Source of the DNA: ANME-2 cluster archaeon
Lineage (GTDB): Archaea > Halobacteriota > Methanosarcinia > Methanosarcinales > Methanocomedenaceae
Assembly (NCBI GenBank): GCA_019429385.1
Contig: JAHYIS010000005.1
Coordinates: forward strand, 1 to 64,000
Reading direction: 5' to 3'
DNA length: 64,000 bases
Shown: positions 629 to 20,410 of the stretch, in pieces
How positions within the stretch are numbered: the first letter of the stretch is position 1
Layout: each line of letters starts with the position of its first letter
Position numbers and translations under genes: made by a program
Notes under the pieces: generated by a model
Databases searched by the model: none
Told to the model about the DNA's origin: nothing
What the model saw: the letters and a program-made list of their open reading frames with translations, nothing else

Positions 629-3600
629 ATGAAAAAAACGCCGAAAAACGGAGTTATTTCTTTACGAAAAAGCATAGGAAAAATACTTTTATTAGTAGTA
701 ATTATATCTCTCTTTTCTTCTATGACTCCCAGCCTGGCTGAAGGTCTGGAAAAACAAACAACCGATTATTCTCTAAAAGGGCTCCATCTTTACAGTTATG
801 ACCTGATATATACATTATTTAATCCTTTGATGGGTACGGCTGGAGAACTGGTCAATATTGCAAATGATTCAACTCCTGCCCCGTCCAATAGTTTCTCTAA
901 TAATAGTACACCAAAAAATACGCCTAATACCACTAATCAAGCAGACCTTATCCAGAACTCTACAAATCAATACTACGATAATAAAGACCAGATAAATACC
1001 ACAAATAGTACTGATAATCCCAACAATCCCCGAATCAAAATCACAGATATTTCCACACCCAAACCAGCACCTATTCAAACTGGAACCAGTACAGTTAATG
1101 AGCAAAAAGTCACATTTTTGAAAAAAAACTATGTGACAGGCAATATCAAAGACCATCAAAACGAGTCAGTATCTGCAGATATTCAGGTGATCAGACCCGA
1201 TGGTCAGGTCAAAATGGAACTTTTAAACAGACCGAATTTCAACGTTGACCTGGAAAACGGCGATACTCTGGTATTTAATGCCAGTAGTAAAGATGTATCT
1301 GCACGGTTTACCATAAAAGGCAATTCAACTGATTCAATCATAACCCTCGACAATTTCGGTAAAATCAAACCCCGGACAACCAGGACTCCTGGGTTCGTTC
1401 CTATGAAATTCGTTGAGGTTCATGCGGATAATACAGACTATGGAACAGTTACTATAACTATTTCGTACGAAGATGAAGACCTTACCGGATTTGATGAGAA
1501 CCAGCTGAACATCTATCATTATACGAACGGAGACTGGAGACCTACCGCATCCACAATAGATAAAACAGCAAAAACAATTACAGCCACCGTGAACGGTTTA
1601 TCATATTTCGCAATTGGCCAGGGCAGCGGGCTGAACATAGTTGCCAGAAGTGATGCCTTAGTAAATCCTGATGATACCATCACTGTGACAGGTGGCGTAT
1701 ATTATGATAACCTGACCATTGTCCCTGCTGCAGATATTACTATTACTATCAAGACCACTGGTATTAATACAGATACGACCACTGATGTATTTGGTAATTT
1801 TAAAACCACTCTTCCATCACCTGCATCAATTGGTACTTATGACGTCCAGATTAATGCCACTTTGGGTGCCATGGAAGCAAATAGTACCAAAAATCTTCAG
1901 GTAACCTCCTCACCCCTGTTCAGGCTGACAGGAACCATCCAGGTCGAAAACGAGGATGTGGCTGCTTCTTATGCGAACGTGACCATTACCAGCACACTTC
2001 CCGCGGGTTCAGTATCCGATAGTTCCCGGTTGACCCTCTCTGGCAAGACATCTATCACAGGTACCAGGATCTATAACCTTTTCACAGATACCAAAGTTGA
2101 TAATGGTGTCAATGCCACCGGTTCATTCAGGTTCTTTGTGGATTCTCTCGCCTCAGGCGAGGTCACTAAGAACTGGGCCACTATATACCTGTATGGAGTC
2201 TCTTATTCGGGTTCAGGTGTTGCTGAAGAAAGTTACGATACGTATCTGGATAGTATGTACAAGGATTCTTCTTCCTATATCAAACCCTGGGACCAGTCGA
2301 CATGGTACTGGAACAATTCCCTGGTTGTGGGAGATATTCTGTATAACACAACACAAACTGTTGATGTGGTTACCCCGAACCCTTCTACTCAGGTCAGGTT
2401 CAACCTGACCGGTGATATGAACATCAATTTCAGTAGTTCAGGCCTGAACAATCCTTCAAATTCCAAATTATTTGTAGATAACGTGCTGCTTCTCTCTTCA
2501 ACTGGTGATCTGGGTACTGAAAATGTGAACATTACTGGTTTCCTGGATGATACCAACGAGCTTGTTATTACTTCAGACGTCAAAGGTGGGGTCGATTATT
2601 CATTGACCACGCAGTTCCATACATACATGAACGCTTCTGTGGTCGATGATGGAATTAACTATTCAGTCACCCTCTCAACTACCAACTACGGAACAGAGGA
2701 CTGGTCATCCCCTGCAATGACCTGTAATGTCCCGGAGGGTGCAATTGATTTTACTATCATTGATGAAGATAATAATAACCTCAATGTCACATCATCCTGC
2801 ACGCTTCCGTCAGACGGCGGGAATGTAGTTATTCCCAACTCAGTGATAGGCAAGATAAAAAGCGGCATTACCAGGACATTCACGCTTTCATACAGCCTGA
2901 AGCAACTGGATATAACAGCTCATCCGTTTGCTGACACTTACATGCCGGGGCAGACTGTTGATATTTATACGGATGTGATGTACAGCGGGTCTGTTGTCAA
3001 TGATGCAACGGTCACAATAACGATAAAAGACCCCCTGGATGTAACACTATTCAACGGTACTGCAACATGGAACGGTAACAATTATTCCATCACGAAAACC
3101 ACCAACGATACCTGGCCAATAGGTATCTATCATGTGAATGTCAGTGCTTTTGGGACCGTTGACGGTGTACTCCGTACCGGCCTGAATAGTACCAGTTTTG
3201 TCGAAAAACGCCTTATATTGTATGTGCAGGCTAATGGTCCCTATCCGCCCCAGCGAAACATCACCATAACCGGCAGGGCATATTACAGCGATGATGGCGC
3301 TGAAGAGGGTAAGACTGTCAACATCTCAGTGAGTGGGCTCAACACTACGGCCACTACAAATGCTACAGGACATTTCCAGGCCGTGATTCCCGGAATGGAT
3401 GCAGGCACTTACCAGGTAACAGCCAATATCACCAACGGATATGGCCTTACCGATTCAGATACTGATACCTTGCTGGTCCTTTCAACCCCATTCTTTATCC
3501 TTATCGATACTGACCTCAGCGAAACATCGGGGCAGTCATTACTGGACCCGAACCATAATTTCATAGTAGAGGTCCCATCCAGCATGGATGTGCTCAGTTC

Positions 3601-6600
3601 GACTGTCACGCTTACCGGTATAACCGAAAAGACGGACGAATTTTACCTCTCGCCTGCTCCCATCTCTATGTATGCTATCGGGACTGTCCAGTTCAATTTT
3701 GTGAACGGGACCTTCATGGTGACCATACCCCCGTACAAAAGTGTTACTGTCAATGATGTTAATATGACCATCACTGCCTACCCGCTGGATACCGGTGTCC
3801 AGGAATCTGTGTTCAATAATTCAATTGACGGTATTGATGTCGGTGAATCACATTATATGGTCCCTGATACACCATCAACACACAGCTGGTCAGAAGATAT
3901 CACTGCAAGAGTTTCACCCGGTATTGCTCATGAAATAAAGATAACGAAACTGGATACCTATACAAAAAATTACGAGTTCATGGCGATGGTGCATGTGAAC
4001 AGGACCGGGTACCTGGACACGCCGTTAAATCCCCGTGCATACATTAGTGGTAATATCATCTACGCCGAACCAGGGGATATGGGGACTTCCTCACATACGA
4101 CCGATATTACTAAATTCATAGAAGCTGGAAGCAATTCGGTCCTCTTTATCAATGACCATAATTCACTTGTAAACTATGTGATCCAGACCAGGGTCAGGGA
4201 TTGGAACTACACACAGGAGACAGTTATTGAAGTTCCCGGCAAATTCGAGATTGAAAACGTATTGTCTGCAACAGCTACTGACCAGAACCTGATGAACCCT
4301 GAGATCAGGCATCCTCTGAAGAAATATGCATCTAACCTGACAGTGTTTGATATCGACAATAATTTGGATATTACTTCTAATTGCACAGTTGCCAATGATG
4401 AATTATTCATACCGACCGAATGTATCGGGCCTATCAATGTGGACGAAACCAGGTTGTTCAATGTATCGTATGATGCCCCAAAACCCGATATTTCACCATC
4501 GGTAAACAAGACAGAATATAATCGCGATGATATTGTGCTCATTTCAGCCAGTATCAATTTTGAAGGGGCACCTGTTCCCGATGCCAATGTATCTGCAGTA
4601 CTATCTAACAGTACACATCCCGAAATCGGGGAGGTTACTCTTACCCATACAGGCAGCGGCGTTTATACTGGTACTTATGTTATCCCCGCAAACACTTCTC
4701 TCGGTGCGTACACGGTCTCAGTGGAAGCCTATAGTGAAACGTTAAATCTCGACAATGAAACAGTAGGATATACGGTAAGAATGCTCAATGCCAGCCTCGA
4801 TGCGGGGGGGCCATATATTGTAGATTCAAATGCCACTGTCTTCGGTTATATCTACAATATGGCTAATGGTAGTCCTATTAACGGTGCGACGGTCAATATT
4901 ACCATCTCAAACTCTTCAGGTATTATCAACCAGACTAACGTTACTACAATTGCCAGTGGTTATTATTCATACAACCGAGCTGTGGAAATGGCAGGAGATT
5001 ATAATGTCAGTGTAGCTGCAATAGATCCTAATGGTATCACCGGTACAGCCAGTGACAGTTTTACAGTCAAATTTGATGTTTCAGTCACAACCAATAGAAC
5101 TTCCTGCAACTCTGGTGACCATATCGAGGTTAACGTTTCAGTCCATGATAGGGGCAGTATTGATGTCAGCACTACCGCAGTAACCGTACTTATTGATATC
5201 CCGGGAACCGGGATAGAGACCCTGTCTATCGGCAACGGCAGGCTGGTCTACTCGGCCGGGTATTATTCAGGCACGTTCACCAACACCACCAATCTTGGTC
5301 AGTATAACATGACCGTTGCTGCCTCTACAGCTATTGCTTCAGGTAATACTACCGGGAGTGTAAGGGTAAGTTCCCTTTTGGTCACAGAATACCTTGATAG
5401 AACCGTATATATTGCAGACGACAATGTAAATGTCCGGGGCAAGGTCTATGACAACGAGGCGGGTGCCAATGCCAGCGGTGCTTCGTATAATATATCTATC
5501 TGGAAGGGAGCGCTGTATATCACTTCAAGCACTGGCAGCACTAATAGTACCGGTGGGTATTCAGTTACATTTCCGGGAATTGCAGCAGGTTCGTACATTG
5601 CTGATATTGATATAATATACGATACTCTTGAGAGTTCCAACACTACTTCTTTTGACATGAAGTATAATATTACGACCACCATCCCAAAATCACTCTATGG
5701 CATTGATGAACAGGTTGATATCAATATCAGTGTATTTGATACCGGGTCTGTTTCAGTCATTGGAGCAGTCCTTACCGCCAATATAACCAATTCAACGGTT
5801 GTTGTGGAGAGCCTGGCCGGCTCCAACATCACTGATAATTCCAACGGTTACTACAATACCTCTTTCACACCTGCCTGGTCTGATGATTTCAATATCTCGG
5901 TCCATGTTGTGAACGGGTCCGTTGCAGGGGACGCTGCCATTGTACCTTTCCGTGCAACAGGATTCTATGTGGATACCACATCAGATTCCCCACGGTACGA
6001 GGTCGGAGATACTGTAACGGTCACAGGTAATCTGTGGGATTCCCAGGATTCGTCCAGGTGGGCTGACGTGACCATTAAGGTTTATGACCCCACTGGCACT
6101 GAGATAGAGACTATCACTCTTTCAGACCAGTACGGTAACTATACCTACAATTTCTCTTTAAATTCCACTGCTTATGCAGGCACCTACTCTGTGCAGGTGA
6201 ATGCCAGCGAGACCGAATCCGGCGGATCACTTACAGCCGTCAACAGTTCGGCTTTCGATGTGGAATATATTACGACCGTTTCCACAAATCACAGTCAATA
6301 CAATACTGATGATGGTGTGGATGTCACCGTGAATGTCAGGAACAGCACGACCCAGGTGGAGGGGGCTTCAGTTAACATCAATGTCACCTATATGGGTCCA
6401 TCTGACTGGTGGGATTTTAGCTGGGAATACAGGGTTAAAATAACAGCAAACAATACCATCGCGGGCACCAAGAATGATTCCTACGTGGTTGTTAAGGGGT
6501 CTGAACTGGCCTCCGTTGGTGTCTCACTCACCAACCTGCCCGTAAACTCGATCAGGATCATCAACCCTTCTATGACAGAAATTGTCAGGTTTGTCGATGA

Positions 6601-9600
6601 CCGGAACTCTGACGGATACCTGGACCCAACCGATGGAATTGTATTCCTGGTCGATCTATCTGCCGGTGAGGAGAAGGATTACTGGCTGTATTATGATTAC
6701 GATATCACCACTGATCCCGGGTACACGCTCCCTGCAAAGCTCAAGCTATACTTTGCAGAGGAGTTTATTATCACAAGTGATGATTATGCCCGTGTTTATT
6801 ACAAACACAGCAACAGGGACGGTACCTTTGGCGGCTATGTCCAGAAAGATGATAATGTCAATAACGACAGGGGAGTTGCTATTGCAGATTTTGATAATGA
6901 CGGGAACTATGATATTGTCGTTGGCGACAGTAACGGCAACCTGTTCCTGCATACATGGACAGATGTGGGTACATTTAGCAAATCAGGTATTTCCCCGGCA
7001 TTTACTTCCAGTTCATATACTATGGATATGACCGCTGCCGATTTTAATGAGGATGGTAACATGGACTTCATCGTCGGCGGTAACAACAGGAACCTGTACC
7101 TGTATACAGGCGACGGTATGGGGAGTTTCACCCAAACCATTATTACCACCACTGCCCCCGGAAATGCGGGAAGGGGTAAGGATGCGGGTGATATAAATGA
7201 AGACGGGCACATGGATTTCATCTATGTAGATAATCCAAACGGTATTGTGTACGGGTATTATGGAACTGGTACCGGTTCATTTGCCGCACCATTGGAACTC
7301 TTCAACTCCCCTGGTACTGACCCCTATGGTCTTGCACTTGGTGATTTTGATAATAACGGTCACCTGGATATCATTGTTAACACCGGTGCAGGTGGCGAAT
7401 ATTATGTATATAGCGGGGACGGTGCAGGTAATTTTATATCCGAAGGTCAGAAGTTCGATACCAATCGCCACGGTGGTATCGATGCGTTTGATTTCAATCA
7501 CGACGGTAACCTTGACGTGGTATATACCACCTACGACACAGAATATACCTATTATGGTGCAGGCAATGGTAATTTCGGGTTCGGTTCAACCAGTCTTGGC
7601 TATACGGGTTACAATATGATGGGTATCAGTGCACCGCCCATGCAGGATATCATATCATCTTCAGTAGATATGAAACAGAACCTCAGCCGTACACCTGTCT
7701 GGAGCGGACCGGCCACTGGTCATGGCGGTGGTAACTATGGTGCCGAAATCAGCCTTTCCAGTGCCGAAACGGGTATTTACCTTGTTGTGGCAAACGTGAA
7801 CAGTCCCTGGCCCGGCGATTCAACATCGACCTTTACGGTACGGGAATTGAGTATTACTTCCAACCTCTATGGCCCCTACAATTTCAACGGCAGTCATAAT
7901 GGTCCGGTGGTACCATTAATCATCTCAGGGACTGTGAGTGATTACGAGTTCAATAATACCATCAAGAACGGCCAGGTCGAGATTTCGATATCGTATCCCA
8001 ACAATTCCCTTGCTACAACCCAGGTAGTGAGCACGGATACATCGGGCCTGTACAATTACGATTTTACATCCAGCTTTAGCAGCACTTCACCTGCCGGTTC
8101 ATACAATGTGAGCATTCAGGTGAACGATTCCGGTATCACAAATAGTGCGGTAAATAATTTCACGGTCTCTACGGTAGAACAGTCCTGGGCACTCCCTGCA
8201 CGCGACTTTAGAATGCCGCTTATGCTCAACAATATCGATTCCCCTTTCTCACAGACCTATAGCAGCAAAGGTTTTGTACTTACTCTTCCGGGTGGTGTTT
8301 CCCAGTCCTCGGTCATTATGAAAGATATAACCGGTGCAAACGTGGGGTATTCAGTGATATGGGATTATGCCAATACCCTCAATGTCACTCTTGATAACTT
8401 CAGTATCGGCATGTTCGAGGGCAGGCTTATCTATGTCTACTTTGACCGGGATAACGGTGCCGCCCCCGATTCGGGCAGTGTCGCACTGGCAAGTGTTCCC
8501 CTGGTCACGGGGACCGTGGAAGGATACTGGATAGATATCACAAAAGACAGTGCCCTGTATCCACCCTCGGGTACTGCCAGGCTCACTGCTAACCTGACCC
8601 TGACCGATAGTTCTCCGCTCGATGGTGCTTTGATCAATTTTACGATCTATTATCCAAACGGTACTCTTGCCTGCGGACCACAGAACAATGTCACTGACCC
8701 TGCCAATATTTCCCAAACAGGTAATTCTGCTGTGTTGAATTATTCAATTCCTGCTTTAAAAGGTCTTTACGGTGTCACAATTAATGCAACATCCCAAAAT
8801 GGCATTCCCAGGACCCAATCCGGCACATTCAATGTTGGCGGCCTGAGTGTTGAAGTGAATACTGACAGGGATATGTACAACACCAGGGAGAATGTTGAGG
8901 TCACGATAAACGTATCAGACATGGGTGTAGCGGTGTCAGGTGCAACGGTGAATATTGGTGTCAATGACGAGAGCGGTCTATTGCCGTATGAGTTCCAGTC
9001 CACTCACATTACCAACTCGAGCGGTATTGCCAGATCCGTCTGGTACATCCCCACCGATGCGGTGCTCGGGAATTATTCCATCCATGTGAATGTCAATACT
9101 GCCAACGATTCGGGTTACAATGATTTTGAAACCTTCAGGGTGGACCGATACGAACTTGGCCTGACGTCCAGCAATAATGCAGTTGGTTTGGGCGGCCCTG
9201 TTGTTATTCGCGGTACCACAATCCATAACGGCAGCAGTGTAGATTCCTATGCCAATATCTCGGTCATGTACCAGTCCGGCTTCATTGACGATGTGATGCC
9301 GCTGGGTGCTACATCAGGTATCAGTACCTGGAACTGGGACTACTCCATGAAGCACAGCGGTGTGAGGTCACATTACCAGGAAGCTTCCGATTCCGGTACA
9401 GCAGGACAGCAGCACTACTTCTTCGATGCCTACAGCGGCTACCCCGTGGGTACGGGCGAGACCATCTCGGCCTGGGTGTACATAGACCCGTTATCCGAAC
9501 CCGTTGACGAGATCATGCTGCAGTTCCATTCCACAGACGGCTGGGGACACCGTGCCTACTGGGGTGCCGACCTTATCCAGTGGGGGACGAACGATACCAG

Positions 9601-12600
9601 TTCACGCCGGCCTAAAGGTGCACTGCCCGCAGCCGGTCAGTGGGCTATGCTCAATGTCACACCTACGGAAATTGGTATTGACGGTATGGTGGTGGACGGC
9701 ATGGCTTTCACCCTGAACGAAAATTCCACGAACACTGCCAGGGTATGGTTCGATGACGTTCATTTCAGTGGTGAGACCATTCATAGTTATCTTGATGTGG
9801 AGAATGTGTCAGCTCCTGGCGGGTCGTATGTACGATACCTTGGAAATGACTATACAGAGACATTTAACGACACCTTTGATACGTTCAATACGACACTCTG
9901 GACCAATACCAGTGATTCTTATCACAACAGTTCCCAGGGGTACATGGTGCTGAATGGGACCGGAGTTAACTGGAATGCCACTTTCTACGGCAACGATAGT
10001 TATGACCGGTCATCCCATCCGGTAATGAAAGCAGACTTCAAGGTCAATGATCTTAATTCCGATCTCCATGTATCTGCCGAAAACACCGCAGCCGGTTCCC
10101 AGTACAGGCGATTCGGAATGCGATTCCAATCAGGTGACATTGTCGGGCAGAGGTACGACCCGGTTGAGGGGTGGGTTACTAAAGTATTGTTCACGCCTGT
10201 TGTTGATACCTGGTATACTGCTGAGATACACTTTTATGATACTTATTCATCCCTGTACGTGTATTCAAGGGATGACAGCAGCCGTCCCAGACCTGACCTT
10301 CCCGATTACGAGTACAATCTCTCTGACTGGAACCCACGGTTCCATTTCTGGGCTTATAATAACCAGTCCTGTATCGATAATGCAAGGGTCGATGTGCAGA
10401 GCACGTATGATACTCTTCCCTGGGTCGGGCAGTATCTTGTTATTTCAAATAGTACCTATCCGGGCCTGGAAAGAACGAATGTGACCGGTGTGCTGGTGGC
10501 GGACCTGAACGTAACGATAGATGCCAGCGGTCCGTATATACCTGGCTCAGGTAATGTTTCCATTACCGGTACCGTCTCGGATAATAGTTCAGGTACTGCA
10601 AGGTCCTCTGATGTGTGGATATATGTAACCTATCCTGATGGTAATACAACGATGTATAATACTACTTCAGACGCTGCAGGGAATTATAGTAACAATTTCA
10701 ATACACCATCAAATACAGGTTTATATTCGGTCCGTGTTACTGCCCGTGATAGTGTCGATATTGCTGGCAGTACGAGCGGCTCATTTACTGTGGGTCTCTA
10801 TACTACGCTATCTGCTGCGGGATCATATATCAATCCCGGTGACGTTTCGGAATTGATACTGGAAATCTCAAACGCTTCATTGGGGGGCAGTCCAATAACC
10901 GGAGCAGATGTCAATATCAACATTACCCGTCCCAACGCTGGTGTTGATGCTTATGCCACACCGTCTGACATTATAGACCACGGTGATGGGACCTACACCC
11001 TTAACTACACGAACACTGGTCTTTACGGCACCTATAGTATCTCGGCAACAGCACTCAGCGGGTCATATTATGGTTTGGCGAATGTGACCTTTACCGTTGA
11101 CGAACTGTATGTTACTTCACAGGTGGGCGGTCCTTATATTGTAGGTGATACGGTATCTGTTCAGGGTCAGGCAGGGTCGCTTTCAAGGGGTCTGGCATTT
11201 GACGGGAATGTTACCATCAACCTTACTTATCCCAATGGTACCGTCATAAGATATTATAATAATAGTACGGTTTCATCAACAACAAGTTTTACCCAATCTG
11301 GCACGTATGGCCATTCAGGATTTACCAGTCCGCAGAATGTCAATGATGGCAACTCTGGCACGTATGCATATACGACAACGTGCAGCGATGATTATATCCA
11401 GGTTACCTGGACAGAGAACAAGACCGTCAGCAGGGTGAGGGCATATTATTACTGGCAGTATTGGCCTACGAATTATAAGATCCAGGTCCTGGATTCGGAT
11501 GGTGTTACCTGGATAGACAAAAAGGCAATCTCAAATTTCATGGCCGCCCCGACGACATATCCATACATCGAAGACAGGATACCGACAACAATGACAAAAG
11601 GTATCAGGATATACTACCTGACGTCATTTTATAGTTCACCCCGGATTTATATCTATGAAATGTGGGCATACGGTCCAGATGAATATTCTGTAGATGAGAT
11701 TCCATTACCGGTTTCAGGTAACTATACAATAAACGTCACAGCCCGGGATCCTTTTGGGGTGACTGGGGTGGCCCCCTCCCTGAATGTTCCGGTCCGGTTC
11801 CTTGTCTCCACTTCCTTTGATAAGGTAAGTTATGACCCCGGCAATACTGTTACGGCTGTTATCCGTGCCTTCAATGGAACGGGGTATGAATCAGGGGCTA
11901 CGGTCTCTTCCCTGCTGGATTATGCACGCAACGGCTCCACCATTGATACTAATGTTACTACCACCAACTCTACCGGTATAGCCAGTGTTACCTATACCCT
12001 TCCCGAAGGATTCACTTCTTATTATGTCAATTCATCATTGAGCAAGGACGGTACCGTGGGGTATGGCTCGAATGCCACATCCACTGCCCATCTTCGTATG
12101 TGGGTAGACCCGGCAGAAGCACTGGTTGGACATTCCTCATGGCCGACAGGAGTTACTCCTGCAGAGTACAGGAACCTCACCATCAATGCTGCATTGTTAA
12201 CATTGGCCGGACATATCATTGATGACCAGACAATTACTGCCAATGTCTATCGTTATGATGGTGCATTGCTGAGCAGTGTTGCTCTAACGGGAACTGATGG
12301 TGCATACTCGGGTGAATATACTATTCCTGACAACGGACCTGAAGGTAGATACTGGATCGAACTACAGGAATATCCAGGAATTAAACACTATTTCAATGTT
12401 GTTGAATGGGGCTGTACCAGGTGCCATATTGATACAATCCCCAATCCGACTAGTTATCATAATGGATATTTTTTACATAGGATAGATGATGTTGTGGTAG
12501 CTGGAACAGACGGCCATATTTATCCATCCAATTTCAGCAAAGAGTATGTGCATGAATCACATCCCTTAAATGGCGGCAGCAGCCAGTGGGGTACATCATG

Positions 12601-15600
12601 TACGTATCACGGTCCGACTGCTGACTGGAACTGTGTAAAATGCCATCCTACCGAAGTGTTACCTTCAGAATGTCCCGACTGCCACAACAGTGCGAACAAC
12701 AAGGGTGCCAGTATCCTTACATCAGAATATGGTGCAGATGTTCATGCCGGTATCAACAGGGATGTGGCACTTGGCAAATCTGCAACTTCAACAGACGGCG
12801 GTGACCCTGCTCTGGCAGTTGATGGTAATGAGTTGACTTCGTGGACTCCTGATAATGTTGCAAGCCAGGTCATTGAGGTCGATATGGCTAGTCTTTACCC
12901 TGTAGATGCTATCCGTCTCGCTATGGCGAACTATAAAGCTACCTATACCATTGAAGGATGGGATAGTACCCAGTGGATAACACTGGTATCCTCTACCACT
13001 TATTCAAACTACGGCAATGATAAGACCTTTACCTTTGCGCAGCAGAATATCAGCAAAGTGAAAGTTACCGCAAGTGCATGGAACAGGGTCCCATCTGGTT
13101 CCCTTTGTTATGGTTCAAATGCGGCAACAGTAACCCAGCAACCACTGATCACATCAATTAATGTCTTCATGCCCAATGACCTGCCCATAACAGCAGCCAA
13201 TCCCACTTCACACGATGCCTGCAAGGTCTGCCATGGCGGCGATATCCCGGCCAATGTCCAGCCCACCATTCCGGAGTGTACCGACTGCCATCCTGAATCC
13301 TCGGGGTCAGGTATGCAGGTCATGCCCTCGAACATGAGCAATGTCGACAGGCAGCTTGAGAATTATGAGGATGTATCAGACATCTCAGTGTATTCTGCTC
13401 CCGGAGTACTGCCATCCACATCCACGTTCACCGCATCGACCGACCAGACCCATGAAGGCAGCAGGTCAGGAAAACTCTATTATTCCATGGCACCGGGTGT
13501 GGGCAGGATAAATGTTGACCGTTCCAACCTTGATTTTACCAATGCCACCAGTATCAGGTTCTGGCTGTATGGCAATCCTGTTGATGATAATACCACCTTC
13601 AGGGTAAGCGTACGGAATAACAAGTCAGGGAAATGGCACTATTATCCCGCACAGAACCTGAACTGGTCTGGCTGGAGCCTGGTGGATATACCCATCACTT
13701 CCCTGAGCGAACTTGATATTCTCTATATCACCCATGCCGATATGCTCAGGATACAATTCGAAAGTAGAAAAGCGGATACCGGTACCATCTATATCGATGA
13801 CCTGCATGTGGAGAGCAAAGGTACCCATACCCAGTACCAGGAAATAAAATGCGGAACATGTCATGGTGTATTGCATGATATTCGACCATCTCCTTCGTGC
13901 AATGAGTGTCACCAGACCCAGACACATGGCAATACGACCGAAACGGTATCCACGTGTGTGGAATGTCATTCTATGGAGAACGGCAGGTTGGTGGTGCGCA
14001 ATATCGACCATGGGAACAATACGACGCTTGTTGAGATACCCATGGACGGTGCAAAGATATCGGATTGCAGCGTGTGCCACAGCATGGCCGAACCGCACGA
14101 TAAGCAGTGGAACTATGTATGTATGGACTGTCACCGTGACAGCGAACACGGTCAGGTAGATGAGACCTATACCGACTATGAAAAAGCATCTACATGCCTG
14201 AAATGCCACAATGACCCGCATGACCTCCAGAACGAACTGACAGCGAAGGGAGGATGCAACGCATGTCATACGCACCGTATCCATGGCCAGAACAGTCTCA
14301 CGTCCACGTATAATGAATCCATCCACCTGGACTGCCTGCGGTGTCATGGCTATCCTGTAAATGATTCTGAGCCTCTTCCCATGGGTCTTGGTCATCCCGG
14401 CGAGATACATATCTCCCAGACCTACGGCCTGACTGCTCCTGAATGCATGTTCTGCCATGAGAATGCCACGAACTCGTATGAATTACATACCGGACTACCT
14501 GTGGATAGGGAAGATACTACGCTGGTCGAATCTATCCAGAATGAGAGTATCTGTATCACCTGCCATGACCCGGTACCATCCTTTAGCAACACCAGCCTGG
14601 AAGCCAGGGATGAGTTGTTGCTTGAACCCCATGCCACCCAGGTGGCAGGTCATGGGAATGTTAGCTGTTTCGTCTGTCACGGGCACAGTCCGGCACAGTT
14701 GACCCTGAATTTCGGTACGGATTGTGTGGGCTGCCATATTAATGCCGCAGTGGCTCCGGTCAATTCCACGAACGGCACCGATATCCCGCCGCCACAGGTA
14801 TTGGGGCACGGGAACACGGAATGTTCACAGTGTCACGGGCATACGAATTCACAGCTTACCTTTGTTGGTTCAACAGCAACGGAATGTATGGAATGCCATG
14901 AGAATGCATCGGCTGAAGTTACATTATTAGAATACATGGACCCCGTATCCAATGGTACTGTACCCTTAAACCAGAACGGTAATGTATGGACAGTCACTCC
15001 TCCGCAGGTTGTGGGTCATGGCAATGTTACCTGTCTCGAGTGTCATACTCATGCTCCCAGCGATTTCAGCAATGTCGAGGATTTCCTGGGTCCCGATTGC
15101 ACGATATGCCACATGAATAACAGCAGGAATGTATCATTGATCAATAATACGATACCGAAGAACAGTAATACAGAAGTGATAGATAGCTCAGGTGAATCTC
15201 TTATTGTCATATCACCTTTCGTGCTGGGTCATGGTAATGCTTCATGTGCTGAATGTCATGGACATACGAATTCCAATCTCACCTTCCTGGGTAGTACGAT
15301 CAGCTCCTGTATTGACTGTCATGAAAATGCTTCAAAGCTGACATTGCTTCTGGAAGATACCATGCCTGCATCCCATACTACGACGATCATCAATGGAACA
15401 TCCAACCCCAAGATAGTCAATCCACCACAGGTGGATGGGCATGGTAATGTGAGTTGCTTTGTATGTCATGACCATGCACCCAGTGATTTTACGAACCAGA
15501 CCTCCTATGAACTTATCGGCGGTAACTGCAGTTCATGCCACAAGAATGCCAGTACGCTAACTCCATTGATCAACTATACCATCCCCACACACCCCAGGAC

Positions 15601-18600
15601 CAACTGGACCAATGAACCAAACAATACACCGCCACTGGTCACACCTCCACAGGTTGTGGGTCATGGCAGGGATAATGAAGTTGATTGTTTTGTCTGCCAC
15701 GGTCATACCAATTCCAGGCTCTCATTCCCTGGTACCTGTACTGAATGCCATGAGAACCAGACCATGTATGATGTACTTAATACCACCTACGGGTACGAAC
15801 CGCCCCAGGTTGCAGGTCATGGTAATGCTTCATGTGACGACTGTCACGGGCATGATACTCCTGACCTCACCTTCAAGGGAACTGCTGATGATGATTGCCT
15901 GGACTGCCATATCAACGCCAGTACTGATAGCATCAATAATACCTGGACTTTGATCAACAATACCATACCTCAATCAGGTAACACGGTTGTTGTAAACAAT
16001 TCAAGCAGTCAATGGGTCGTTAACCCGCCCCAGGTTTTAGGTCACGGTAACACAAGCTGTATCTATTGCCATGGTCATGCTCCGGCAGAATATTACATTG
16101 ATACTGCCACTATCATTGGTACCGACTGCTATAGCTGTCATATCAACGCATCTGCACAACCCATCCCACTGCGCAATAACACCATACCCAACTCGGACCA
16201 GACCAGCTGGACCAATGAACCGAACCAGACCCCTGCCATGGTTATCGCACCCCAGGTACTGGCACACGGTAACGATACGAACCATGATGGTGTGGCTAAT
16301 TCTTCTGACTGTTACGTGTGCCACGGCCATACCAATTCTGAACTTACCTTCAAAAGCGATTGTTACCTTTGTCACAGTGGAAGACAACACGGGTCGTCAG
16401 ATAATCCCATGACAGGCCAAAAAGGATTGCAATGCTGGGCCTGTCATACCCATGATAACATGAACAGGACGTATCTGGGTATTAACTCGCCTGATGACTG
16501 TAACCTTTGTCATCTTAATGTCACACAGGCAAATGTCATAAACGAAACATATTCCCTCTATCCTCCCCAGATATTTGGCCACCAGGACAGGCATAACAGC
16601 TCAGCGTACCTGAACTGCGATTACTGCCATGAGCATATTCCATCTGCTATAAAGAAATTGACTGCCCGTGGCTGGGAGGAATCTGAATGCCGTGACTGTC
16701 ATATTGAAGGCAATAATAAGACGGTAACCTGGACGCCGCCCACACCCATCAATGAAGTACCTGCCGATTGGGGTCATGCCCAGATGCATTGTAAGGATTG
16801 TCACGGTCATACCCCGTCCGGAATGGATTATGTGGGCATTGAACAGTGCGATGATTGTCATGTAACGGTCCATTCTGATATGGACGGTTATGATACCGGG
16901 GACAATTCATCATGGGATGATACCTGTTATACCTGCCACATTGAGGTGAATGGTACCAATAAAACTGATTCCACTCGATTCGATCTAGCACATAATGGAG
17001 ATTCCAACTGTACGGTCTGCCATGTTGAACCGAATGGAACACTTGAACTGATATCAGACTGGAATACCAACTATAAGTGCAAGGTCTGTCATACAGGTTC
17101 AAACCCTGATACAAATAATACTCTTATCGAAAACAGTACCTGGTATGCATCACAGATCGCTGTAAATGCCTCAGATACGCATGGAAATTCCACGTATATG
17201 GTCCAGTGTACGTCCTGCCATAGTTCACACAGGAGAGCAGATACGTCTAATGACTATAACTGTACAACCCTGTGCCATGCGGCTCAGGCAAATACAACCA
17301 CCCTTTGCGAATCCACATGCCATTCTGATGGAGTGACAGAAGTTGTGGAAGATTGCGACTATTGCCATAACAATGCCACGCCGCCAGAACCTACGGTACA
17401 GATTTCAGATATGCACTCCTCCAGTTTCGAGGCGAACAATACCACCAGCCACCATAACTGCACCTGGTGTCATTACAACCTGAACAACTACACGCCTGCC
17501 ATAAAATCCGTGAATGGCACTGATATCCCCATCTACCCGAACATCCACAACATCTATGTTCCCACTACCTGCACTGAATGTCATCCGACACCTATTGCCA
17601 CCCACCCCATCCTGGGAAGTAACTATGATACCATGACCCTGGACAGCTGTCTCGGCTGTCATGGAACATCCCACTCCATTATTCGTGAAGGCGGCGGTCC
17701 TGACTGTCTGTCTTCCACCTGCCACGCAAACAACACCAAACCGGTGAATGTCACCGAATTTGAAGCAGGACCCCACAGCACATTGAACAGTGGTGCTGTC
17801 AACTCCTCGCCTCTATCCCATGAATCGGAGAAAGCTTGCTGGTTGTGTCACGGCAACGGGAGCGAACCCGGCACACATCTCACCAACATGAGCAAGGTAA
17901 AGTCGTGTGACGATGAAACCTATTGCCACGGTAACGCGAGCCTCAGCATCAATGTGATATCACACACTTCTACTGCTGACACCAAATATGTGAGAACCAG
18001 TGCCAGTATCACCTGTGTGTTCTGCCATAATCGTACCGGTGTCTCTGTTTACAACCAGGGTGATACCACGCTTGCCCAATCAGCCAACATGTCCAACATG
18101 CCTGCCGGTGCAAGAGTGACGGCCCATTATATCAAGAACCTTACCAATACCGCAACAGACGAGCATAATATCATTGATACCGTGGGCTGGGCCGGTGGAA
18201 GCCAGGGATGCGTGTACTGTCACCGTACTAATAGCGGTGCAATCTTCAATGCCACCAATATCTCGCAATTGAGCAGCCATGATGCAATGGGTAACAACTG
18301 CTATAGCTGTCATATTGTTGGGACGACCACACTGCATGATATCGGTGTTATCAATGCTTCCCAGGGTGGTCCTGACTGTGTGGGTTGCCATGGAAGCGGT
18401 GCAGCTCTCGAAGATGTGAATACCACTGTCTTCAATTCCAGTATTCATGCCGGTTTGAACAGCGGTGCAGCCAATGTTACACCGGTGAACGAGCTCAGCA
18501 AGGCATGCTGGGCCTGTCACGGCAATGGTTCAGAACCGAGTGGTCATCCAAACCAGACCGTTGGCGGCAGCAACCCAGCCAATGTGACCTATCCACTGAA

Positions 18601-20410
18601 CTGTACAGAGGGTAAATGCCACATTAACGGTACGCAACTGGGTACAACCATTACCGGAACACAGCCTGATATCACTATGGAACATGTTCCACAAATAAAC
18701 GAATCCACAGATATCAGGACACTTTATGCACCGAATTGTACTGATTGTCATGTTAACAGTTTGAGTTCTTATTCAGAACCGGTATGGGGTCTTGCAAACG
18801 AGACCGACCATTCGAATGTCTCGCATTATGGCAGTACTTCCGGCCTGGTCACTCCCACATCTACCTGTGACCTGTGTCATAAAAACAGCACAACCGGATC
18901 GCAGTGGGGTAATGCAACCCAGGTCAGGCATCCGGTCAATAAATCAGCTGGCTTTTGTGATAACTGTCACGATAGCGGTAATTCGTTCCATGCTGAGAAT
19001 CTTTCTAATGCAATTGATATACATACTTTTGGCTTTGATTGGGAGGGTGATGGCATAGACTATGCTGTAAAACAAAGTCAGCAATTCCAGGATAATGAAG
19101 GTTGTTATGCCTGCCACGAAGAAGGAATAATGATGTCAGGTGTCACCGATACCAATACAAAGACCTGTGAAGAATGTCATTATAATAATTCGGCTGGTCC
19201 GTTCAATACTGCAAATATCAATCTGAGAACCGATGTTAATGATACATTGCCCCGTGTATTCAATCATGTCAATGATTCTGGTGCATTCGTGAAAGTATCG
19301 AATATGAGTGAATTCTATAATTCACAGAGTAATATCAGCACTCCATCGACCTGTTATGCTTTCAACAATAATACTGGTGCAGGTACCTGTCATGGTGTAA
19401 GTTATGATAACAGTTCGAACGGGTTCTATGCCTTCAGGAGATTATGGGATACGGAGGATAGTACTATGAAGCCATACAGGTGGACCCAGACTCTTGACCA
19501 TTTACCGAACACTTCTGATTGTCGTATCTGTCACCTTGGTGCCAGTGCTGCAGGTATACTTGTCGAAAGTGCTTTCTGGGGTAACCCGATGAATGTAAGC
19601 AGCACCCAACCGGGTGTTTCAACTCACACGCAATGCACGGCTCTGGCCAGTGATTGCTGGGGTTGCCATGTCGTAGGTGGAGGCCAGCCGGTTGATTTCC
19701 ATGATGCAAATATCACCGCTGGCGGCGGACCTGATTGTATCGGCTGCCATGATGTTGACGGTCCGGTTTCGGCTGATAAGAAACTTAATGTATCGTCTAT
19801 GAATGTGACTTCAGCCATTCACTATGGATTGAATAATGCAACCCTGAATGGTACCAATTACCTGTGTTATGCATGTCATTTAGACGGCCAGCCTCCTGTT
19901 AGCGGTCACCCTATCAATATCAGCCAGACCAAAGAGTGTCCGGATTGTCATACCGGTACTACCATCTACAGTGCTCCGGCTGTGGGGAGGCATATCCCGA
20001 ATGCATCGGCTCCTCAGCAGCATAGTACATCCAATTTGACAACGAATTACGCAGAATGCTGGGATTGTCATAACAACAGCGTTAACAGTAGTGCAACCTT
20101 GTGGCAGAGCAACAGGTCTCTTGTGTCCCATTACGGTACCAATAGCAGCCTGGTCAGGACCAACTCTAATGATTCGATTGATGAGTGCTACAATTGCCAC
20201 TGGAATACCACATACCAATATAAATATGGAAATGCACCACAAACCCAGATGGCATCCCAGATTCAGTGTTACGAATGCCACAATGGCGATTGGAAGTTCG
20301 AGAGAAGATTGCCATTCTTACCAAGGACATGGGTATTCTATGCGACTGAACCAGGAAACCTGCATAATCAAAAGATGGGGACATACTGGGCATGTTCGAC
20401 ATGTCATTAA
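629..20410 (+). CDS. Giant secreted multihaem cytochrome c with adhesin/S-layer-like N-terminal half
   Basis: A 6,593-residue protein if started at ATG 629. An in-frame ATG at 617 exists, but GGGTGG between the two looks like the ribosome site for 629. Residues 1-37 form a signal peptide ending near SLA. Next come an N/T/S-rich spacer, a PGF-pre-PGF-like domain (about 166-336), many Ig-like or transthyretin-like domains, DUF2341 (about 1925-2030), five FG-GAP repeats (about 2080-2310), jelly-roll and LamG-like modules (about 2894-3260) and a discoidin-like module (about 3552-3690). The first CxxCH is at C3929 and the last, CSTCH, is the final five residues. I count 67 CxxCH plus CX3CH (2), CX4CH (2), CX5CH (1) and one possible CX11CH. 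A second discoidin-like and a second jelly-roll module interrupt the haem region. N-x-S/T sequons are dense throughout. No C-terminal membrane anchor follows. Family knowledge: ANME and Methanoperedens-type archaea encode very large S-layer-associated cytochromes for extracellular electron transfer. A role in carrying electrons across the S-layer is inferred. Confidence 0.93.
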   Translation: MKKTPKNGVISLRKSIGKILLLVVIISLFSSMTPSLAEGLEKQTTDYSLKGLHLYSYDLIYTLFNPLMGTAGELVNIANDSTPAPSNSFSNNSTPKNTPNTTNQADLIQNSTNQYYDNKDQINTTNSTDNPNNPRIKITDISTPKPAPIQTGTSTVNEQKVTFLKKNYVTGNIKDHQNESVSADIQVIRPDGQVKMELLNRPNFNVDLENGDTLVFNASSKDVSARFTIKGNSTDSIITLDNFGKIKPRTTRTPGFVPMKFVEVHADNTDYGTVTITISYEDEDLTGFDENQLNIYHYTNGDWRPTASTIDKTAKTITATVNGLSYFAIGQGSGLNIVARSDALVNPDDTITVTGGVYYDNLTIVPAADITITIKTTGINTDTTTDVFGNFKTTLPSPASIGTYDVQINATLGAMEANSTKNLQVTSSPLFRLTGTIQVENEDVAASYANVTITSTLPAGSVSDSSRLTLSGKTSITGTRIYNLFTDTKVDNGVNATGSFRFFVDSLASGEVTKNWATIYLYGVSYSGSGVAEESYDTYLDSMYKDSSSYIKPWDQSTWYWNNSLVVGDILYNTTQTVDVVTPNPSTQVRFNLTGDMNINFSSSGLNNPSNSKLFVDNVLLLSSTGDLGTENVNITGFLDDTNELVITSDVKGGVDYSLTTQFHTYMNASVVDDGINYSVTLSTTNYGTEDWSSPAMTCNVPEGAIDFTIIDEDNNNLNVTSSCTLPSDGGNVVIPNSVIGKIKSGITRTFTLSYSLKQLDITAHPFADTYMPGQTVDIYTDVMYSGSVVNDATVTITIKDPLDVTLFNGTATWNGNNYSITKTTNDTWPIGIYHVNVSAFGTVDGVLRTGLNSTSFVEKRLILYVQANGPYPPQRNITITGRAYYSDDGAEEGKTVNISVSGLNTTATTNATGHFQAVIPGMDAGTYQVTANITNGYGLTDSDTDTLLVLSTPFFILIDTDLSETSGQSLLDPNHNFIVEVPSSMDVLSSTVTLTGITEKTDEFYLSPAPISMYAIGTVQFNFVNGTFMVTIPPYKSVTVNDVNMTITAYPLDTGVQESVFNNSIDGIDVGESHYMVPDTPSTHSWSEDITARVSPGIAHEIKITKLDTYTKNYEFMAMVHVNRTGYLDTPLNPRAYISGNIIYAEPGDMGTSSHTTDITKFIEAGSNSVLFINDHNSLVNYVIQTRVRDWNYTQETVIEVPGKFEIENVLSATATDQNLMNPEIRHPLKKYASNLTVFDIDNNLDITSNCTVANDELFIPTECIGPINVDETRLFNVSYDAPKPDISPSVNKTEYNRDDIVLISASINFEGAPVPDANVSAVLSNSTHPEIGEVTLTHTGSGVYTGTYVIPANTSLGAYTVSVEAYSETLNLDNETVGYTVRMLNASLDAGGPYIVDSNATVFGYIYNMANGSPINGATVNITISNSSGIINQTNVTTIASGYYSYNRAVEMAGDYNVSVAAIDPNGITGTASDSFTVKFDVSVTTNRTSCNSGDHIEVNVSVHDRGSIDVSTTAVTVLIDIPGTGIETLSIGNGRLVYSAGYYSGTFTNTTNLGQYNMTVAASTAIASGNTTGSVRVSSLLVTEYLDRTVYIADDNVNVRGKVYDNEAGANASGASYNISIWKGALYITSSTGSTNSTGGYSVTFPGIAAGSYIADIDIIYDTLESSNTTSFDMKYNITTTIPKSLYGIDEQVDINISVFDTGSVSVIGAVLTANITNSTVVVESLAGSNITDNSNGYYNTSFTPAWSDDFNISVHVVNGSVAGDAAIVPFRATGFYVDTTSDSPRYEVGDTVTVTGNLWDSQDSSRWADVTIKVYDPTGTEIETITLSDQYGNYTYNFSLNSTAYAGTYSVQVNASETESGGSLTAVNSSAFDVEYITTVSTNHSQYNTDDGVDVTVNVRNSTTQVEGASVNINVTYMGPSDWWDFSWEYRVKITANNTIAGTKNDSYVVVKGSELASVGVSLTNLPVNSIRIINPSMTEIVRFVDDRNSDGYLDPTDGIVFLVDLSAGEEKDYWLYYDYDITTDPGYTLPAKLKLYFAEEFIITSDDYARVYYKHSNRDGTFGGYVQKDDNVNNDRGVAIADFDNDGNYDIVVGDSNGNLFLHTWTDVGTFSKSGISPAFTSSSYTMDMTAADFNEDGNMDFIVGGNNRNLYLYTGDGMGSFTQTIITTTAPGNAGRGKDAGDINEDGHMDFIYVDNPNGIVYGYYGTGTGSFAAPLELFNSPGTDPYGLALGDFDNNGHLDIIVNTGAGGEYYVYSGDGAGNFISEGQKFDTNRHGGIDAFDFNHDGNLDVVYTTYDTEYTYYGAGNGNFGFGSTSLGYTGYNMMGISAPPMQDIISSSVDMKQNLSRTPVWSGPATGHGGGNYGAEISLSSAETGIYLVVANVNSPWPGDSTSTFTVRELSITSNLYGPYNFNGSHNGPVVPLIISGTVSDYEFNNTIKNGQVEISISYPNNSLATTQVVSTDTSGLYNYDFTSSFSSTSPAGSYNVSIQVNDSGITNSAVNNFTVSTVEQSWALPARDFRMPLMLNNIDSPFSQTYSSKGFVLTLPGGVSQSSVIMKDITGANVGYSVIWDYANTLNVTLDNFSIGMFEGRLIYVYFDRDNGAAPDSGSVALASVPLVTGTVEGYWIDITKDSALYPPSGTARLTANLTLTDSSPLDGALINFTIYYPNGTLACGPQNNVTDPANISQTGNSAVLNYSIPALKGLYGVTINATSQNGIPRTQSGTFNVGGLSVEVNTDRDMYNTRENVEVTINVSDMGVAVSGATVNIGVNDESGLLPYEFQSTHITNSSGIARSVWYIPTDAVLGNYSIHVNVNTANDSGYNDFETFRVDRYELGLTSSNNAVGLGGPVVIRGTTIHNGSSVDSYANISVMYQSGFIDDVMPLGATSGISTWNWDYSMKHSGVRSHYQEASDSGTAGQQHYFFDAYSGYPVGTGETISAWVYIDPLSEPVDEIMLQFHSTDGWGHRAYWGADLIQWGTNDTSSRRPKGALPAAGQWAMLNVTPTEIGIDGMVVDGMAFTLNENSTNTARVWFDDVHFSGETIHSYLDVENVSAPGGSYVRYLGNDYTETFNDTFDTFNTTLWTNTSDSYHNSSQGYMVLNGTGVNWNATFYGNDSYDRSSHPVMKADFKVNDLNSDLHVSAENTAAGSQYRRFGMRFQSGDIVGQRYDPVEGWVTKVLFTPVVDTWYTAEIHFYDTYSSLYVYSRDDSSRPRPDLPDYEYNLSDWNPRFHFWAYNNQSCIDNARVDVQSTYDTLPWVGQYLVISNSTYPGLERTNVTGVLVADLNVTIDASGPYIPGSGNVSITGTVSDNSSGTARSSDVWIYVTYPDGNTTMYNTTSDAAGNYSNNFNTPSNTGLYSVRVTARDSVDIAGSTSGSFTVGLYTTLSAAGSYINPGDVSELILEISNASLGGSPITGADVNINITRPNAGVDAYATPSDIIDHGDGTYTLNYTNTGLYGTYSISATALSGSYYGLANVTFTVDELYVTSQVGGPYIVGDTVSVQGQAGSLSRGLAFDGNVTINLTYPNGTVIRYYNNSTVSSTTSFTQSGTYGHSGFTSPQNVNDGNSGTYAYTTTCSDDYIQVTWTENKTVSRVRAYYYWQYWPTNYKIQVLDSDGVTWIDKKAISNFMAAPTTYPYIEDRIPTTMTKGIRIYYLTSFYSSPRIYIYEMWAYGPDEYSVDEIPLPVSGNYTINVTARDPFGVTGVAPSLNVPVRFLVSTSFDKVSYDPGNTVTAVIRAFNGTGYESGATVSSLLDYARNGSTIDTNVTTTNSTGIASVTYTLPEGFTSYYVNSSLSKDGTVGYGSNATSTAHLRMWVDPAEALVGHSSWPTGVTPAEYRNLTINAALLTLAGHIIDDQTITANVYRYDGALLSSVALTGTDGAYSGEYTIPDNGPEGRYWIELQEYPGIKHYFNVVEWGCTRCHIDTIPNPTSYHNGYFLHRIDDVVVAGTDGHIYPSNFSKEYVHESHPLNGGSSQWGTSCTYHGPTADWNCVKCHPTEVLPSECPDCHNSANNKGASILTSEYGADVHAGINRDVALGKSATSTDGGDPALAVDGNELTSWTPDNVASQVIEVDMASLYPVDAIRLAMANYKATYTIEGWDSTQWITLVSSTTYSNYGNDKTFTFAQQNISKVKVTASAWNRVPSGSLCYGSNAATVTQQPLITSINVFMPNDLPITAANPTSHDACKVCHGGDIPANVQPTIPECTDCHPESSGSGMQVMPSNMSNVDRQLENYEDVSDISVYSAPGVLPSTSTFTASTDQTHEGSRSGKLYYSMAPGVGRINVDRSNLDFTNATSIRFWLYGNPVDDNTTFRVSVRNNKSGKWHYYPAQNLNWSGWSLVDIPITSLSELDILYITHADMLRIQFESRKADTGTIYIDDLHVESKGTHTQYQEIKCGTCHGVLHDIRPSPSCNECHQTQTHGNTTETVSTCVECHSMENGRLVVRNIDHGNNTTLVEIPMDGAKISDCSVCHSMAEPHDKQWNYVCMDCHRDSEHGQVDETYTDYEKASTCLKCHNDPHDLQNELTAKGGCNACHTHRIHGQNSLTSTYNESIHLDCLRCHGYPVNDSEPLPMGLGHPGEIHISQTYGLTAPECMFCHENATNSYELHTGLPVDREDTTLVESIQNESICITCHDPVPSFSNTSLEARDELLLEPHATQVAGHGNVSCFVCHGHSPAQLTLNFGTDCVGCHINAAVAPVNSTNGTDIPPPQVLGHGNTECSQCHGHTNSQLTFVGSTATECMECHENASAEVTLLEYMDPVSNGTVPLNQNGNVWTVTPPQVVGHGNVTCLECHTHAPSDFSNVEDFLGPDCTICHMNNSRNVSLINNTIPKNSNTEVIDSSGESLIVISPFVLGHGNASCAECHGHTNSNLTFLGSTISSCIDCHENASKLTLLLEDTMPASHTTTIINGTSNPKIVNPPQVDGHGNVSCFVCHDHAPSDFTNQTSYELIGGNCSSCHKNASTLTPLINYTIPTHPRTNWTNEPNNTPPLVTPPQVVGHGRDNEVDCFVCHGHTNSRLSFPGTCTECHENQTMYDVLNTTYGYEPPQVAGHGNASCDDCHGHDTPDLTFKGTADDDCLDCHINASTDSINNTWTLINNTIPQSGNTVVVNNSSSQWVVNPPQVLGHGNTSCIYCHGHAPAEYYIDTATIIGTDCYSCHINASAQPIPLRNNTIPNSDQTSWTNEPNQTPAMVIAPQVLAHGNDTNHDGVANSSDCYVCHGHTNSELTFKSDCYLCHSGRQHGSSDNPMTGQKGLQCWACHTHDNMNRTYLGINSPDDCNLCHLNVTQANVINETYSLYPPQIFGHQDRHNSSAYLNCDYCHEHIPSAIKKLTARGWEESECRDCHIEGNNKTVTWTPPTPINEVPADWGHAQMHCKDCHGHTPSGMDYVGIEQCDDCHVTVHSDMDGYDTGDNSSWDDTCYTCHIEVNGTNKTDSTRFDLAHNGDSNCTVCHVEPNGTLELISDWNTNYKCKVCHTGSNPDTNNTLIENSTWYASQIAVNASDTHGNSTYMVQCTSCHSSHRRADTSNDYNCTTLCHAAQANTTTLCESTCHSDGVTEVVEDCDYCHNNATPPEPTVQISDMHSSSFEANNTTSHHNCTWCHYNLNNYTPAIKSVNGTDIPIYPNIHNIYVPTTCTECHPTPIATHPILGSNYDTMTLDSCLGCHGTSHSIIREGGGPDCLSSTCHANNTKPVNVTEFEAGPHSTLNSGAVNSSPLSHESEKACWLCHGNGSEPGTHLTNMSKVKSCDDETYCHGNASLSINVISHTSTADTKYVRTSASITCVFCHNRTGVSVYNQGDTTLAQSANMSNMPAGARVTAHYIKNLTNTATDEHNIIDTVGWAGGSQGCVYCHRTNSGAIFNATNISQLSSHDAMGNNCYSCHIVGTTTLHDIGVINASQGGPDCVGCHGSGAALEDVNTTVFNSSIHAGLNSGAANVTPVNELSKACWACHGNGSEPSGHPNQTVGGSNPANVTYPLNCTEGKCHINGTQLGTTITGTQPDITMEHVPQINESTDIRTLYAPNCTDCHVNSLSSYSEPVWGLANETDHSNVSHYGSTSGLVTPTSTCDLCHKNSTTGSQWGNATQVRHPVNKSAGFCDNCHDSGNSFHAENLSNAIDIHTFGFDWEGDGIDYAVKQSQQFQDNEGCYACHEEGIMMSGVTDTNTKTCEECHYNNSAGPFNTANINLRTDVNDTLPRVFNHVNDSGAFVKVSNMSEFYNSQSNISTPSTCYAFNNNTGAGTCHGVSYDNSSNGFYAFRRLWDTEDSTMKPYRWTQTLDHLPNTSDCRICHLGASAAGILVESAFWGNPMNVSSTQPGVSTHTQCTALASDCWGCHVVGGGQPVDFHDANITAGGGPDCIGCHDVDGPVSADKKLNVSSMNVTSAIHYGLNNATLNGTNYLCYACHLDGQPPVSGHPINISQTKECPDCHTGTTIYSAPAVGRHIPNASAPQQHSTSNLTTNYAECWDCHNNSVNSSATLWQSNRSLVSHYGTNSSLVRTNSNDSIDECYNCHWNTTYQYKYGNAPQTQMASQIQCYECHNGDWKFERRLPFLPRTWVFYATEPGNLHNQKMGTYWACSTCH
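6865..7570 (+). repeat. Five FG-GAP/VCBS beta-propeller repeats within the giant cytochrome
   Basis: Five consecutive units of about 46 residues each carry an aspartate-rich calcium-loop core: ADFDNDGNYDIVVG, ADFNEDGNMDFIVG, GDINEDGHMDFIYV, GDFDNNGHLDIIVN and FDFNHDGNLDVVY. This is the FG-GAP/VCBS signature found in integrin-like propellers and adhesins. A full propeller normally has seven blades, so either two divergent blades flank the visible ones or this is a partial propeller. The block directly follows a DUF2341 domain beginning near WWDFSWEYRVKI. Confidence 0.8.
14639..16380 (+). repeat. Array of alternating di-haem repeats in the giant cytochrome
   Basis: About nine to ten units of roughly 55-75 residues start with QVxGHGNxxCxxCHxH and end with CxxCHxNAS. 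Two flavours alternate: one with HTNSxLTF after the first haem, the other with HAPSDF or HAPAEY. Each unit carries two CxxCH motifs plus extra His residues (the GHG and CHGH positions) that could act as distal haem ligands. The alternation suggests growth by duplication of a four-haem block. A more degenerate unit follows at about 16570-16710. Confidence 0.85.

Follow-up and report, generated by a model that had tools for sequence, protein, structure and literature searches.

Near one end of a 64,000-nucleotide stretch of DNA from an ANME-2 cluster archaeon (contig JAHYIS010000005.1, positions 1 to 64,000; hereafter the window), a single frame appears to encode both a long adhesin-like part and a multihaem cytochrome. 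Is this one gene, and if so, what might a chain that carries binding-type modules along with dozens of haem sites do outside the cell?

One frame across the junction

The initial annotation described an uninterrupted frame of about 19.8 kb from position 629, with a signal peptide. ORF reading recovers exactly this, a single frame of 6,597 aa with zero internal stops (Table 1), for which the probability by chance is about 1e-154 at the local composition. The mass of the protein without haem is about 714 kDa. Translation likely begins at the ATG at position 629 (residue 5), which is closely preceded by GGGTGGC, and the signal sequence follows directly. The part before the first CxxCH makes up 59.6% of the chain, about 3,930 residues.

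Table 1. Features of the giant cytochrome gene and its upstream neighbour, with positions in the window.
Feature	Position	Strand	Residues	Basis or remark
Divergent upstream gene	2..352	-		Kept beside the orthologue in G006, 72% aa identity; neighbourhood comparison
Giant adhesin-cytochrome ORF, 6,597 aa	617..20410	+		Frame; likely start ATG 629
Signal sequence, ...KSIGKILLLVVIISLFSSMTPSLA	629..739	+	5-41	Most hydrophobic segment; equivalent in G006 orthologue
Ig-like/MG2 beta-sandwich scaffold	1304..6460	+	about 230-1948	Pfam; collinear Methanoperedens homologues, 31-33% identity
FG-GAP repeats, predicted beta-propeller	6875..7696	+	about 2087-2360	PF13517, E=7e-36, six stretches
MG2 domain	8855..9130	+	2747-2838	PF01835, E=1.6e-11
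MG2 domain	10553..10789	+	3313-3391	PF01835, E=6e-8
Discoidin (F5/8 type C) domain 1	11336..11611	+	about 3574-3665	PF22633, E=0.0014 on tile; alignment
MG2 directly before first haem motif	12182..12379	+	3856-3921	PF01835, E=7e-7, slightly under curated cut-off
Junction haem domain, CxxCH 1-3	12413..12685	+	3933-4023	Motif scan, alignments
Discoidin domain 2, between CxxCH 3 and 4	12785..13090	+	4057-4158	PF00754, E=8e-10
CBM11/CIA30-like domain, between CxxCH 5 and 6	13322..13705	+	4236-4363	PF03425, E=9e-5, under curated cut-off
Eight tandem di-haem modules, 52-76 aa each	14633..16252	+	4673-5212	Repeat consensus
C-terminal haem region, ends ...YWACSTCH*, without anchor	16814..20407	+	5400-6597	Orthologue, paralogues end alike
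Six variant motifs, in order Cx3CH, Cx3CH, Cx4CH, Cx5CH, Cx4CH, Cx11CH	17261..19393	+	5549-6259	Motif scan, orthologue

A gene of this size could be an assembly artefact, an adhesin gene wrongly joined to a cytochrome gene near 12.4 kb, and the fragmented assembly, with 70 contigs and several cytochrome paralogues at contig ends, gives some reason to ask. The junction, however, lies inside single contigs of four genomes of the same genus (G000, G006, G004 and G007) and of two Methanoperedens genomes (G029, which is MnB_21, and G059), the latter at 37-48% identity and with the same order as the giant cytochrome between about residue 230 and at least about residue 5000. In G004 (B4-08) residues 1095-4337, and in G007 (B4-03) residues 2861-4241, fall within a single contig. 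In G006 (CSMAG_1931) the gene is split between two contigs, the first of which reaches residue 4959; an exact in-frame overlap of 139 bp between the contig ends gives an orthologue of 6,955 aa, 68% identical, whose C-terminal join rests on that overlap. No 30-mer is repeated within the gene and the longest exact match to the fetched paralogues from its own genome is 35 bp, which makes a misjoin through repeats unlikely. Along the gene GC3 varies, with no step at 12.4 kb. The three other genomes of the genus and the homologues from another family exclude a join at this place, and we give the artefact a negligible chance. The same genomes bear out the proposal that binding-type modules and a multihaem region are united in a single conserved chain.

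Contigs C24 and C38 of G000 (L029, L030) begin with cytochrome frames of 1,174 and 1,209 aa; since both match the query alike, they represent either a recent duplication or an assembly duplicate.

The divergent gene upstream is conserved beside the G006 orthologue, while the region downstream of that orthologue is not syntenic with the window, where the neighbour is a convergent gene for an NMT1/SsuA-type binding protein. There is no adjacent CcmF2, and no cytochrome c assembly (PF01578) gene lies beside the giant cytochrome, unlike its paralogues on contigs C43 (L026:11350-12024) and C22 (L063:365-2651), which both adjoin such genes. Elsewhere in the window, a frame of 635 aa at 56295-58202 (-) combines CbiM, a PDGLE domain and an ECF/CbiO-type ATPase, with CbiQ adjoining, and is by its domains a fused cobalt/nickel transporter. 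Two AAA_14/DUF4143 ATPases, at 45879-47204 (-) and 51248-52618 (+), bracket a few kb that include a tRNA-Arg gene and are possibly mobile or recently duplicated.

Binding-type modules and the haem region

The protein had been described as an Ig/propeller/discoidin part followed by a haem part. Pfam matches support all of these domains, including two F5/8C stretches in the long segments for discoidin domain 1, but not a clean boundary, as discoidin domain 2 and the CBM11-like domain lie between CxxCH motifs. These two domains account for motif gaps of 183 and 191 residues. The CBM11-like domain is also found in the MnB_21 homologue, which lacks discoidin domain 2 and has the haem motifs on either side of it drawn together; discoidin domain 2 is therefore an insertion into a haem domain. 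The MG2 and Ig domains are generic, and a ligand-binding role for the modules is read from domain content. N-glycosylation sequons are at least twice as frequent as expected in both halves (140 against 66+/-7, and 116 against 44+/-6). This excess fits a surface glycoprotein, and the chain is probably glycosylated; it is also acidic (pI 4.3 and 5.3).

The haem region, the last 2,665 residues, holds exactly 67 CxxCH motifs, the first at residue 3933 and the last at residue 6593, where 2,000 shuffles of the same region gave a mean of 0.5 and a maximum of 4. There are also six variant motifs (two Cx3CH, two Cx4CH, one Cx5CH and one Cx11CH), which take up nearly all of the remaining cysteines, and the earlier count of 67 plus variants is thus confirmed. 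As the variants are kept in the G006 orthologue, up to 73 haems might be carried; Cx4CH in particular is supported as haem-binding, since one CxxCH of the giant cytochrome is Cx4CH in G006. The motif count, the signal sequence and above-cut-off matches to PF14522, PF22113, PF02085 and PF14537 identify a multihaem c-type cytochrome, and the genome also has genes for cytochrome c assembly. Each module of the di-haem core has two CxxCH and four invariant histidines (consensus PPQVxGHGNxxCxxCHGH...CxxCHxNAS). With 164 histidines in the region for at most 73 haems, this would fit bis-His ligation. AlphaFold2 gave pLDDT values of 25 and 28 for haem segments 4404-5420 and 5400-6597.

There are 39.8 residues per CxxCH, or 36.5 when the variants are counted. 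Chain lengths in solved-structure entries are 333 residues for MtrA (6r2q_A) and 669 for MtrF, corresponding to 33 and 67 residues per haem at ten haems each. The filament core of OmcZ has eight haems in 258 residues, or 32 residues per haem (PMC9473688). The initial annotation regarded the haem density as low, unlike that of nanowire cytochromes; this does not hold, the values being in the range of OmcZ and MtrA, and comparison with OmcZ, MtrA and MtrF also leads us to reject the argument that a low density speaks against conduction.

The G006 orthologue has retained each of the 67 haem-attachment sites and each of the six variants. Residues 4501-5750 are 85-92% identical between the two proteins, against mostly 44-82% for the N-terminal half, and the G006 protein carries two additional inserted stretches, of about 190 and 170 aa. 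With dN/dS of 0.07-0.09 in the haem core and 0.07-0.13 across the haem region after residue 4400, the haem core is under purifying selection. Synonymous divergence is about 0.7-1.5 after residue 4400 and about 1.0-1.4 in residues 161-1240 and 2081-2360, and high or saturated over most of residues 1241-2080 and 2361-4190. Tentatively, exchange with more distant copies, and not relaxed constraint alone, may lie behind some of the binding modules, with saturation limiting what can be drawn from these values.

Relatives and a mosaic origin

Among 150 genomes of the order, strong matches to the junction region come from four genomes of the organism's own genus and three of one genus in another family, including MnB_21; other genera of its own family have none. 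In a species-level genome collection we found five loci: three in the same genus, one in MnB_21 and one in the uncultured archaeon LFW-280_3_2. A viral or Borg origin was rejected, as no relative appears in viral contigs. In the LFW-280_3_2 homologue (L046:8468-8470; also G079:C87 and L113), an in-frame stop separates a haem-free frame of 1,977 aa from one of 3,461 aa with 52 CxxCH, and the locus may be two separate genes, one disrupted gene or an error in the sequence. On contig C24 of G059 (L111/L112), a homologue of 5,323 aa with 36 CxxCH is directly followed by a protein of 1,270 aa with 27 CxxCH; their C-terminal ends are similar, which suggests a tandem duplication.

The MnB_21 homologue (L047) has 5,442 aa and 52 CxxCH and is collinear with the giant cytochrome from residue about 230 to about 4990, through the Ig/MG2 scaffold, the junction haem domain, the CBM11-like domain and the first haem block. 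The same genome encodes a protein of 5,615 aa with exactly 113 CxxCH (contig C49; L041, L073). 'Ca. M. manganireducens' was reported to have MHC/S-layer proteins with 113 haems, a record count, and with 52 haems, both highly expressed during Mn-dependent AOM (PMC7082337); because the isolate name and both haem counts agree, L047 is very probably the published 52-haem protein. It differs from the giant cytochrome in having an S-layer domain, a C-terminal membrane helix and a CcmF-like neighbour, and in lacking an FG-GAP match and the second discoidin domain. The FG-GAP region falls in an alignment gap, with no aligned counterpart in the Methanoperedens homologues.

The N-terminal part is common to the giant cytochrome and L047, after which the haem region of the former differs and ends in ACSTCH. 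This ending recurs in the C22 paralogue and in one G006 protein, while the C43 paralogue (72% identical over residues 4292-5768) and the G059 homologue have a beta-domain-like tail instead. By these alignments the giant cytochrome is a mosaic: an MHC-B-type protein shares its N-terminal half, and its C-terminal half is of another kind, without an anchor. The Methanoperedens family also has a stand-alone protein of 564 aa with 12 CxxCH (L082:1096-2787, L084:1099-2790), homologous to residues about 3790-4035, and this protein could be the ancestor of the fusion.

The 67 motifs place the protein among the large ANME MHCs, which have 20-80 haem sites (PMC9012536). As in MHC type B of that classification, here represented by a 2,156-aa protein of G012/G010 that shares 57% identity with the MnB_21 protein over the C-terminal half, a haem-free N-terminal part precedes the haem region. 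In contrast to MHC-B, the giant cytochrome has no S-layer domain, C-terminal helix or adjacent CcmF-like gene, the haem-free part is rich in Ig/MG2 domains and longer by a factor of about eight, and Pfam finds no peptidase M6, an M6-peptidase-like part being a feature of MHC-B. Type C proteins likewise have no S-layer domain and no C-terminal helix, and their large haem-free N-terminal region has been proposed to bind carbohydrate or a partner (PMC9012536). The likeness to published type C proteins is one of architecture, and no beta-helix/pectin-lyase-type family was found in the giant cytochrome by Pfam (E<=0.1 on long segments, 0.01 on tiles). In ANME-3, a protein that combines type B with type C features in a comparable way has been described, and in ANME-2c one with 86 haems (PMC9012536).

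Among bacterial systems, OmcZ of Geobacter sulfurreducens is also a secreted multihaem cytochrome made with Ig domains and of similar haem density, although it has eight haems and its Ig domains are C-terminal and removed, whereas the Ig part here is N-terminal. A single-sequence search of solved structures gave no match to OmcZ or OmcS; in a separate search, MtrF was the best solved-structure hit (E=5e-7). Profiles for MtrF/MtrC domains II/IV (PF22113) and cytochrome c7 (PF14522) match across much of this region, although MtrF and MtrC are bacterial outer-membrane decahaem proteins about one tenth of the size of the giant cytochrome.

Location and possible functions

The initial annotation envisaged a protein that could span or extend beyond the S-layer. 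Spanning of the S-layer, or integration into it, is not sustained, as the S-layer domain PF07752 has no Pfam match in the giant cytochrome, and whole-chain hydrophobicity reveals no segment after the signal sequence comparable to it, nor a membrane helix at the C-terminus. Since PF07752 is absent here although it has 11 matches elsewhere in the genome, we reject the reading of the protein as an S-layer conduit. A separate S-layer cytochrome, with at least 41 CxxCH and PF07752, is encoded on contig C18. Contig C13 has a cytochrome b gene followed by a gene with 10 CxxCH, the order described for ANME-2a/2b (PMC9012536); in G049 the cytochrome b gene has no adjoining 10-CxxCH gene. On the strength of this pair, the ANME-2 host is probably a member of the Methanocomedenaceae.

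We favor, at a probability of roughly 0.55, a secreted giant multihaem cytochrome that relays electrons outside the S-layer while being held by its binding modules to the matrix or to a partner. The first 3,900 residues would form a long, probably N-glycosylated Ig-like chain carrying glycan- or protein-binding modules (the FG-GAP propeller, the discoidin domains and the CBM11-like domain), and the C-terminal 2,665 residues would hold 67-73 haems around a core of eight self-contained di-haem modules. Electrons would leave the cell through smaller cytochromes and the separate S-layer cytochromes and pass to this haem array, which the modules would tether to the consortium matrix, to the archaeon's own surface or to a partner, one chain thus performing both attachment and relay. 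The upstream parts that this proposal expects are present in the genome, namely the C13 cytochrome b and 10-CxxCH genes, the C18 cytochrome and the cytochrome c assembly genes. Binding to a partner cell is plausible, but binding to the organism's own glycan matrix fits equally well. Against this reading, no anchor was found that would fix the protein to the archaeon itself.

Three other functions could be served by the same chain. It may be a precursor, with a protease splitting the Ig/adhesin part from the haem part after export and the haem part working alone or polymerizing, by analogy with OmcZ, which is made with tandem Ig domains that it loses to OzpA before filament assembly (PMC9473688). 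The very different rates at which the two halves diverge would agree with this, but the discoidin and CBM11-like domains sit between haem motifs within the cytochrome half, so that one cleavage could not part binding from haem functions, and the junction is conserved across two families; we consider a precursor unlikely. Somewhat less probable again is a protein that is mainly an electron capacitor or a redox-active matrix glycoprotein, rather than a directed wire to a partner, and whose modules bind the archaeon's own polysaccharide matrix. The lack of a membrane or S-layer anchor is in keeping with such a role, as are the acidic, sequon-rich chain with its glycan-type modules and the ANME-2c transcript levels, in which large ANME cytochromes are below some small ones (PMC9012536). 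Against it, the regularity and strong conservation of the haem core are what a defined path would be expected to show, and the MnB_21 homologue was reported as highly expressed (PMC7082337). We think it improbable that the variable N-terminal half is mainly a mechanical stalk, a spacer extending the haem array outward with binding modules secondary: Ig-like repeats do make up most of that half, and the insertions in the G006 orthologue would suit a spacer, but there are several distinct domains of ligand-binding type, some of them inserted inside the haem region.

Earlier papers already describe giant ANME cytochromes, fusions of these with carbohydrate-type modules and the idea of partner binding (PMC9012536, PMC5244752). 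As far as the literature searched shows, the very long Ig/propeller/discoidin half and the binding modules inside the haem region are new, as are the regular di-haem array and the lineage-specific propeller and discoidin modules. A more speculative extension of the tethered-relay reading, which we hold only tentatively, is that the protein is a single-chain recognizer of partner or matrix and a conductor, whose recognition half evolves by insertion and exchange of modules while the haem half stays fixed; the syntrophic ANME-2 would have added the FG-GAP and discoidin modules that the metal- or nitrate-reducing Methanoperedens relatives lack.

For the electrical contact of ANME archaea with partner bacteria or minerals, attachment and electron transfer are usually treated separately. 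A single chain with both functions would be a concrete molecule to seek in consortia. Because its haem core and binding half change at unequal rates, and sister lineages differ in whether they carry the discoidin and propeller modules, the idea of partner recognition can be tested across genomes with known partners.
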